From: Capitulum mitella
Lineage: Eukaryota; Arthropoda; Thecostraca; Pollicipedomorpha; Pollicipedidae
DNA length: 64,000 bases
Assembly: GCA_030062745.1 (NCBI GenBank)
Contig: CP099852.1
Coordinates: forward strand, 18,657,949 to 18,721,948
Direction of reading: 5' to 3'
The notes under the pieces are model-generated. The model saw only the letters and a program-made list of their open reading frames with translations. It was not told the origin of the DNA and did no database searches. A program made the position numbers and the translations under genes. This document shows, piece by piece, positions 3,201-63,080 of this stretch. Position 1 is the stretch's first letter. Every line of letters starts with the position of its first letter.

Positions 3201-6200
3201 CCGTCGGTCGTCGTCAGTCGTCGGTCGCCGTCAGTTGTCACCGTCAGTTCTGCCGCAGTCAGCTGCGATGAGCCATTTTCGCGTGGTGTCGCCTCGCGAA
3301 CTTTTCCCGTGGACTTTAAGTGATTGAAATAAGGGCCGAGCATCAGAGATCTGCGGCCTGCGCCTCTGCACGCTCCCACTGCTTGCTGCAGTGCAGTTCG
3401 TCGGTCGCCTCTGAGTGGCTGCGAGACCCCGCTCATGGGTGACCGCCACAGACGCGTGCTGGTCAGCTGGCGGCTCTCTGTTCGAGCTGCGGCTCCTGTG
3501 CTTGGCGCAGCCGAGCCGACCGGCCTTTTGAGTCGCGTCGCCTGCTGTGACGTCACCTGCTGTGACGTCGGCGGACTGCCGAGCCGCTGGCGCCGCTGAC
3601 GTCGCCGCTCTGTTCCGGCAGGGGCCCGATGGGCTGGCCGGGCCTGCCCGGCTGGCGGGGGGAGCGCGGCCCGCCGGGGCCCCCCGGGCCCAGAGGCGAA
3701 CCCGGCTGGCCCGGACAGCCGGGCTTCAAGGGGCCCAGGGGCGACCGGGGCTCGGTGGGCCCGCGCGGCAAGGTGGGCCGGCCCGGCCCGCCGGGTCTGA
3801 TCGGGCCCAAGGGCCTGCTGGGCCGGCCGGGGATCGACGGCCTGTCGGGGCGCCCGGGTCTGCCCGGGCCCCTCGGCGACGTGGGCTTTGCCGGGCGGCC
3901 GGGGCCGCAGGGCGCACGCGGCCCGCCGGGCCTCTACGACCCGTTCATCACGGCGGCGATGAAGGGCCCTACGGGTGTGCAGGGCGACCCGGGCCCGCCG
4001 GGCGTCGCCGGACAGCCGGGCCTCCCCGGCCTCGCCGGCCGGCCGGGCCCGCCCGGCTGGCCAGGCTCGCCCGGTCCTGACGGGCCGCCGGGCCCGCGCG
4101 GCCGCCCGGGCCCGGCGCCGCCCGGCGACCCCGGCGACGACGGCCGGCCGTCGGGCGCTCGCGGTCCGCCGGGCCCGCCCGGCCTGCCCGGGCCGCAGGG
4201 CTTCCCCGGGCAGCCGGGCCTGCCCGGCCCGCCGGGGATGGGGCAGCCCGGTCTGCCCGGGCGGCCGGGCCAGGACGGCTATCCGGGTTTGCCGGGGCTG
4301 CGAGGAGACATCGGCTTCCCAGGTGAGGGAGCGCGTGAGCCGCCGAACGCCTGCTCGCCGCCGAGACAAGCGTAAACGTCTCCATGTCTAGACGCCTTAG
4401 CGCCCGGTGTCTCGACGTCTCATTGTTTCGACGTCTCGACGCCTCAAGGTCGCGATGTCTTGAATTCTCGTCGTCTCGATGTCTCGATGTTTCGACGTCT
4501 CGGTCTCGAAGTTTCGCTTCGTTAACATCTCACGTCACAGGTCGCCGATATCTCAATGTCTCGACGTCCCGACCCTCGACGTCGACTGACGGAAATCTCA
4601 CTGCGTAGCGTCGCGGCCCCCTGCGTCGGCTACCCCAGCGGACTCAGAGACAACAGCCGTCCGAGGTCGAGCCGGACACCCCGCCCCCCCCCCCCGCTAC
4701 GACGCACGCCCTGCCGGTCGCGCCTCTGAGTCGGCGCCACGATGGCGCTGCGCTGCTGTCGAGCGTGCGCTCTGGGGCTGTCGATCGGATGACACGCGGA
4801 ACGGTGACGTTTCAGGAGAGAAGGGTAGGCCGGGCCGCGTGGAGGGCGTGCCCCAGCAGGGTCCGGACGGCCCGCCCGGCCTGCCCGGCCCGCCCGGAGA
4901 GCCAGGCAGGCCCGGACCGGACGGCGTCGACGGCCCGCCTGGCCTTAAGGGGCTGCCCGGAGACGACTGTGTGGCCGGCATCGGTGAGGTCCCGGCCGAC
5001 CGCACTGCCATCTGTCGGCCGGTTTGTCGTTCTTTTCCCTGACGTCATTCGGCCGAGGTTTTAGAGAAAACATTGAGGCTGGACTCGCCGCGCTTGATTT
5101 CGGGTCCTCCTTGTTTTAAATCGGCGTTTACTCGCATGTTAATGCGGCTTTTCAGCTTACATATCGTTGAGTGGAATTGGGGGACCAGACACGATCTCGC
5201 CAATCCACATCCATTGTACCCTGGCTCTTGCTCCTCAGGCCTTGGCCCAGACCCTACCCTCACCTGGTCCCTGACGAACCCATTCTGCCGGCTAGTTAAC
5301 TTTCATCGAAGTTTTCTGAGCGGAAGTATAGCTACCGCTTTCGTCACGGCACGGAAACAGGCACATGTATTATGAGCGGCTTCAGGTGACGTACGAATTT
5401 TGGTCGTAGCGCTCAGTACGGCATGGTGACATCCTGTCATCCCTCGCCTTTTCGGCAGCCTGAGGATGACCTGTGACACGGTCCCCTATCGTTACACCAG
5501 TACCGCGTCATTCAAGGGACCCGATGGCTCATCAGTGACTCCCTGTGCCCTCAGGGTCGCCGCCGGCGACAAAACGGCACACCAGTGACCCCCTGTACTC
5601 CAGGGTCACCTCGTCGGTGACCCGACTGTCCACCAATAACCGCCTGTTCTTTCAGGGTCATCCCGCCAGTGGCCCGGCGGTTTACCAGTGACCCCCTGTG
5701 CCCTCAGGGTCCCCCTGCGAGAAAGGCCAGCCCGGGGAGCCGGGCAGACCCGGCTTCGAGGGGCTGCCGGGTCCGGTTGGTCTGCGCGGCCGACGCGGCG
5801 ACAGAGGTCTGCCCGGCAATGTCGGATGGCCCGGCCTCCCCGGCGTGGACGGCGTGCGGGGCGCGGCAGGTCAGCGGCCAGACTGGGGGCGCTCAGAGGT
5901 CAGACTAGGGGCGCTCAGAGGCCAGACTAGGGGCGCTCAGAGGCCAGGCTGGGGGTGCTCAGAGACCAGACTAGGGGTGCTCAGAGGCCAGACTGGGGGT
6001 GCTCAGAGACCAGACTGGAGGCGCTCAGAGGCCAGACTGGGTTTGCTCAGAGGCCAGACTGGGGGTGCTCAGAGGCCAGACTAGGGGCGCTCAGAGGCCA
6101 GACTAGGGGCGCTCAGAGGCCAGACTAAGGGCACTTAGAGACCAAACTGGGGACGCTCAGAGACCTGACTAGCGGCGCTCAGAGGTGTTGTGACATTTTA

Positions 6201-63080: not shown

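Follow-up and report, generated by a model that had tools for sequence, protein, structure and literature searches.

Mirage-like minisatellites at exon-intron junctions of the barnacle Capitulum mitella

Introduction

Why do tandem repeats in the introns of neighbouring barnacle genes so often contain the end of the adjacent exon together with its splice site? The question is raised by a 64,000-nucleotide stretch of DNA, the window analysed here (C14:18657949-18721948, in an assembly of 477,042,490 bases and 16 contigs), in which four neighbouring genes reside: collagen IV (+), DDX23 (-), LSM8 (+) and TMC (-). A sequence-only reading had described arrays starting exactly at the junction in at least 17 introns, offered a junction-directed duplication process or selection for extra splice sites as causes, and knew of no named system of this kind. 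A name does exist: in amphioxus, exon-intron boundaries duplicated in minisatellite-like fashion are known as "mirages" (PMC3087553, PMC3902484). As far as the accessible text of these papers goes, mirages were described in Adh3 and in the globin genes BflGb6 and BflGb9 (PMC3087553), PGBD5 was added and troponin C cited (PMC3902484), and Adh mirages are credited to Canestro et al. 2002 (cited through PMC3087553). Regular mRNA splicing is said there to be undisturbed, and length instability to be both germline and somatic (PMC3087553, PMC3902484); the origin of such duplications is called 'unclear' (PMC3087553).

Results

Gene models

Exon models of the four genes comprise 55 exons and 51 introns. 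The DDX23 model is a single open frame of 806 codons including the stop; the collagen model, starting at the first exon of the window, is one open frame of 1683 codons including the stop. Parts of the models match the Pfam domains LSM, TMC and C4, the N-terminal TMC piece having no match in the Pfam search of model pieces. The LSM-domain gene is presumably LSM8, a name taken from the family. Over residues 230-732, the region searched, DDX23 is 95% identical to the protein of Amphibalanus amphitrite and 93% to that of Pollicipes pollicipes, which by protein comparison indicates a barnacle origin. When joined at exon-proximal sites, DDX23 is colinear with both proteins over the parts compared.

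Two irregularities were noted in TMC: a 1-nt frame break in exon 11 (about 50060), either an assembly error or a real lesion, and mismatched phases from exon 2 to exon 3 (59087-60706), where a small exon was missed or a base is wrong. Immediately downstream of LSM8, and on its strand, an open reading frame free of interruptions (38428-39237) encodes a deaminase domain (PF00383, PF14437) and possibly shares a transcript with LSM8; its N-terminus carries in-frame tandem repeats (38492-38690). We take it to resemble ADAT2.

Arrays spanning junctions

Junctions (52 donor, 53 acceptor) were monitored with 50-nt probes made up of 30 exon and 20 intron bases, each aligned to at most 400 bases of its own adjacent intron, a score of at least 18 defining a spanning copy. 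Such copies were found at 18 of the 105 junctions, the chance level being 2/3060 when the same probes meet another intron. Sixteen are junctions named in the sequence-only reading, and probe test and copy alignments agree that every one of these carries repeated copies of exon end plus splice site. The other two are weaker collagen cases, the exon 13 donor (score 19) and the exon 15 acceptor (score 19.5, adjoining a 5-nt repeat array). The 16 clear junctions, seven donor and nine acceptor, fall in 15 introns, because TMC intron 7 carries different arrays at its two ends; the earlier count of at least 17 introns is thus right for 15, and is reached only by adding the two weaker collagen junctions. 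Nor do the arrays start exactly at the junction, since those delimited by TRF extend 7-50 nt into the exon. Repeat units at the clear junctions are about 28-80 nt long. All arrays were read from the sequence of one assembly, and are as follows.

5518..5715 (+): COL4 exon 7 acceptor array, 52-nt unit x 3.9, junction 5707/5708
9598..9701 (+): COL4 exon 11 donor array, 35-nt unit x 3, junction 9621/9622
17228..17471 (+): COL4 exon 19 acceptor array, 70-nt unit, 3 copies besides the authentic site, junction 17445/17446
23124..23343 (-): DDX23 exon 13 acceptor array, 45-nt unit x about 5, junction 23138/23139
26101..26574 (-): DDX23 exon 8 donor array, 43-nt unit x 11, junction 26548/26549
28339..28637 (-): DDX23 exon 5 donor array, 42-nt unit x about 7, junction 28601/28602
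29273..30023 (-): DDX23 exon 4 donor array, copy spacing about 30-56 nt, junction 30003/30004
38172..38257 (+): LSM8 exon 2 acceptor, one extra copy only, about 22 nt of exon, junction 38235/38236
42200..42455 (-): TMC exon 17 acceptor array, 70-nt unit x 3.7, junction 42231/42232
44544..44692 (-): TMC exon 15 acceptor array, about 50-nt unit x 3, junction 44562/44563
45405..45654 (-): TMC exon 14 acceptor copies, about 69-nt unit, degenerate
47640..48036 (-): TMC exon 12 acceptor array, 80-nt unit, AG kept in 2/8 copies and lost in most
52722..52947 (-): TMC exon 8 acceptor array, 61-nt unit x 3.7, junction 52772/52773
53973..54528 (-): TMC exon 7 donor array, 41-nt unit x 13.6, junction 54510/54511
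55922..56035 (-): TMC exon 5 donor array, about 42-nt unit x 2.8, junction 56007/56008
61888..62946 (-): TMC exon 1 donor array, 28-nt unit x about 38, junction 62920/62921

The exonic share of the units varies. Each TMC exon 8 unit includes the acceptor and about 50 nt of exon in open frame (GWLDASELYYGFYYRG), DDX23 exon 5 units up to 36 nt of exon (ending YKERHQ) followed by GTGAGG, and DDX23 exon 8 units about 25 nt (ending GLQNRDIIG) followed by GTAATG. DDX23 exon 4 ends KHDTG here and KHEPG in Pollicipes P0003, GEVSKD coming next in both. The TMC exon 15 acceptor was placed at 44562, 17 nt upstream of the 44545 of the first model, and with this placement the array includes the acceptor.

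TRF detected 46 intron-touching arrays in the window, 32 wholly intronic and 14 spanning a junction, one of the latter (7671-7763) being a collagen coding repeat. The arrays at TMC exon 3 (59195-59984) and at the collagen exon 13 acceptor (10794-10942) stop 5-6 nt from the exon and leave it out; with a further array at 5871-6185, they make three reaching 2-6 nt from an exon without clear exon sequence. On the minus strand, the region following TMC exon 17 (41650-42090) holds degenerate repeats of GTGAGA type that resemble donors; they are not spanning by the probe test, and may be an old donor mirage that took in very little of the exon. An interstitial (AACCT)n/(AGCCT)n array resides at 33281-33482; its motif resembles the arthropod telomere repeat.

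Direction of copying and turnover

At DDX23 exons 5, 8 and 13 the exonic parts of the units are coding sequence conserved in Amphibalanus and Pollicipes; sequence therefore moved from exon to intron, and growth of the exon out of the array was rejected for these three exons. In each of five arrays examined, out of the 16, 1-5 positions set the exon copy apart from most internal copies, and in all five the internal copies share differences from the exon copy. The array thus evolves together, the exon copy staying apart.

One junction-spanning duplication is not tandem. The last 40 nt of collagen exon 19, the donor and about 164 nt of intron are found reversed in intron 17, 1.3 kb upstream, the inverted repeat (16042-16244 and 17521-17724) having arms of 172 nt (98% complementary) and 32 nt (97%). 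A search for dispersed junction copies in the window, from which collagen hits both shorter than 60 nt and below 90% identity had been removed beforehand, gave 12 hits: this inverted copy and 11 collagen matches of 70-79% identity, which look like coding repeats.

Copied splice sites

Were copies selected as extra splice sites, serving in reserve, as decoys or as enhancers by which splicing is improved or regulated, the copied sites should be better preserved than their surroundings. At first sight they are. GT/AG is kept in 86/101 spanning copies (84/111 under stricter placement), splice sites are identical to the exon copy at 187/202 positions and others at 3131/3696 (exon 2086/2509, intron 1045/1187), and 27/84 decoys score as high as the authentic site or higher. 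The better match to the exon copy reads as an alignment effect, spanning alignments presumably favouring matches near the site. More weight was given to the comparison with the internal consensus, because exon positions differ from the exon copy through changes common to the internal copies. By this measure splice dinucleotides in five arrays were changed at 12/182 positions, as often as all other positions (181/2694) and slightly more often than exon positions (102/1689), though less often than other intron positions (41/431); neighbouring splice-site bases were changed at 38/574. Most TMC exon 12 copies lack the AG (2/8 keep it), and if used, the 84 site-keeping copies would introduce 71 stops, 9 frameshifts and 4 in-frame inserts, that is, a stop or a frameshift in 80/84; decoy scores and reading-frame counts take in 21 of the about 38 TMC exon 1 units. 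The numbers are mixed and on balance give no clear sign of selection for or against copied sites. We regard this part of the sequence-only proposal as very improbable.

Array ends near exon edges in the window

Junctions are not covered by arrays more often than the intron interior (18/105 junctions, 523/2638 interior positions). A junction, however, can sit only in a unit at either end of an array, and the matched comparison is therefore with interior positions lying in a terminal unit. By this terminal-unit test, adopted after the coverage result had been seen, 18/102 junctions of complete introns were positive vs. 520/13418 interior positions (3.9%), a 4.6-fold excess (2.8-6.7 by bootstrap over introns), which persists at a score of at least 25 (14/102 junctions vs. 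3.15% of interior positions). The TRF count points the same way, 14/46 intron-touching arrays spanning a junction vs. 3.9 expected when each array is placed as a one-unit founder; the expected number is raised by the 316-nt period given to the DDX23 exon 4 array.

Genes outside the window

Since the window had been picked out for its arrays, an independent set of genes was selected by Pfam family regardless of repeats: myosin (PF00063), chaperonin CCT (PF00118) and two kinesin genes (PF00225). The rows used were the matches lying within the sampled DNA for CCT (59/61) and myosin (45/86), and 12/129 kinesin matches. Chaining of exon matches with splice-site scores resolved 53 introns, one of which was dropped for its low splice score; the 52 kept (37 CCT, 15 myosin) belong to a sample of 180 kb, about 0.04% of the genome.

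In CCT and myosin genes 7/104 junctions were positive by the terminal-unit test vs. 70/7502 interior positions (0.93%), a 7.2-fold excess with a wide bootstrap range over introns (2.3-26.5). At the stricter score of 25 the figures fall to 2/104 vs. 1.25%, and the TRF count shows no excess outside the window (1/11 arrays spanning, 0.97 expected). The genome-wide overlap check that had been proposed, run on this small part of the genome, thus gives an excess by one measure and chance expectation by the other. With one-sided junctions and the two kinesin genes included, 10/187 junctions on six contigs are positive (CCT 7/97, myosin 3/68, kinesin 0/22). The clearest cases are the CCT acceptors C5:25675778 (12 copies) and C14:14835348 (6 copies), the myosin donor C2:10684332 (7 copies) and a CCT donor on C13 (8 copies), its true junction apparently lying one unit upstream of the automatic call. 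The window is richer in junction arrays than the other genes, and the bias extends beyond it.

Copies at ten junctions on six contigs, with divergent members, also argue against an assembly artefact, by which repeats would have been collapsed or falsely expanded at exon edges. One amphioxus mirage was misassembled, according to the part of PMC3087553 available, and the frame break in TMC exon 11 could be taken as a similar warning; the same text reports RT-PCR work on mirage-bearing amphioxus globin genes. Of all explanations considered, we give the artefact the least credence.

Distance from the edge and GC content

The terminal-unit rate is highest from -10 to +40 nt around the junction, at 0.17-0.21 in the window and 0.03-0.07 in the independent set; it is 0.01-0.05 from +70 in the former and 0-0.03 from +50 in the latter, and at +80 it is lower by a factor of about 3 or more in both sets. 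Rates are likewise elevated at interior positions 40-80 nt from a junction (103/804 in the window, 17/812 in the independent genes), which suggests a preference for the exon-edge region and not for the splice site as such.

A bias of this kind might be one of survival and detection only. Duplications would arise uniformly, those within exons would be purged, those in introns or across junctions would survive, and junction arrays would be easier to see, owing to GC-rich edges and to slower divergence from a constrained exon copy; the frozen exon copy could make the detectable age up to twice as long. Junction probes are indeed richer in GC than interior ones (0.69 vs. 0.53), and GC matching lowers the excess from 4.6-fold to 2.8-fold in the window (18 observed vs. 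6.5 expected) and from 7.2-fold to 4-fold in CCT and myosin genes (7 vs. 1.8). By GC class, positive window junctions number 2/8 (0.45-0.55), 9/21 (0.55-0.65), 6/46 (0.65-0.75) and 1/27 (at least 0.75), at interior rates of 0.029, 0.049, 0.074 and 0.071, the GC-richest junctions hence showing no excess (1/27 vs. 7.1% of interior positions). The TRF count in the independent genes fits uniform placement as well. Against survivorship alone stand the 2.8-4-fold excess left overall after GC matching, the persistence of the window excess among high-scoring copies, and the peaked edge profile in both gene sets. We consider it unlikely as the whole explanation, though it merits serious attention. Of the junction-directed duplication first proposed, what holds is that array ends near junctions exceed uniform placement, in the window and, by the probe test, in separate genes; per-position coverage, being equal, lends it no support.

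Discussion

The barnacle arrays match amphioxus mirages in the four features compared at the sequence level. According to the accessible text on amphioxus, the tandem unit spans the exon-intron boundary, as it does here at 16 clear window junctions and in CCT and myosin genes; both 5' and 3' boundaries are involved, as are seven donors and nine acceptors here; many but not all copies keep AG/GT, here 86/101; and the boundary copy escapes homogenisation (PMC3087553), as in the five arrays examined. Units measure from 10-72 nt (Adh3) to 150-160 nt (globins) in amphioxus, and about 28-80 nt in the barnacle (PMC3087553, PMC3902484). What differs is the host, an arthropod, the presence of 16 clear cases in four neighbouring genes, and the measurement of the junction excess against a null.

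Other systems are less close. Human internal tandem repeats are likewise sited at exon-intron boundaries, but in the part of PMC2812944 available they belong to paralogues from segmental duplications and are considered as makers of new introns. In intron gain by tandem genomic duplication of an AGGT-bearing exon, an idea found in the same accessible text of PMC3087553, exon and splice-like sequence are copied as well, and the intron comes to be flanked by two copies of the duplicated exon sequence; the exons examined here, in contrast, are already separated by introns, of which usually only one end lies in an array. Among the 16 clear junctions copies at both intron ends occur in TMC intron 7 only, with different units. 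By title or opening of the abstract, no barnacle or arthropod case appeared among the literature matches listed, a body from which subscription papers are mostly absent, and no passage on such arrays was found in the searchable text of the barnacle genome papers PMC8416341, PMC8917513 and PMC11331182.

We favour, as the probable account, minisatellites of the mirage type that originate by exon-edge-biased tandem duplication and are tolerated through exon-proximal splicing. A tandem duplication would arise across an exon edge, or within tens of bases of it, placing exon end and splice site into the intron; the array would then expand and homogenise by ordinary minisatellite turnover. Splicing would pick the exon-proximal site (the first of the donors, the last of the acceptors), and because of this the gene would tolerate the array; use of that site is deduced here from the colinear DDX23 model. 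The bias of origin, which we infer to be mutational rather than selective, may stem partly from the high GC of exon edges and partly from another cause.

A bolder extension, which we put forward tentatively and think more doubtful than not, is that exon-intron borders are mutational hot spots for the founders of tandem duplications, tied to transcription or splicing and strong in barnacles and amphioxus, repair of breaks or of R-loops at exon edges being an example of such a process. If this were true, the inverted copy of collagen exon 19 would be a by-product of the same process.

With about 5% of junctions in separately sampled genes carrying copies, a curiosity known from amphioxus is extended to an arthropod, and quantified. 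How such duplications arise becomes testable in a chromosome-scale assembly, and introns in which many splice sites compete, as do the about 38 units at TMC exon 1, offer natural test loci useful for the study of splice choice.
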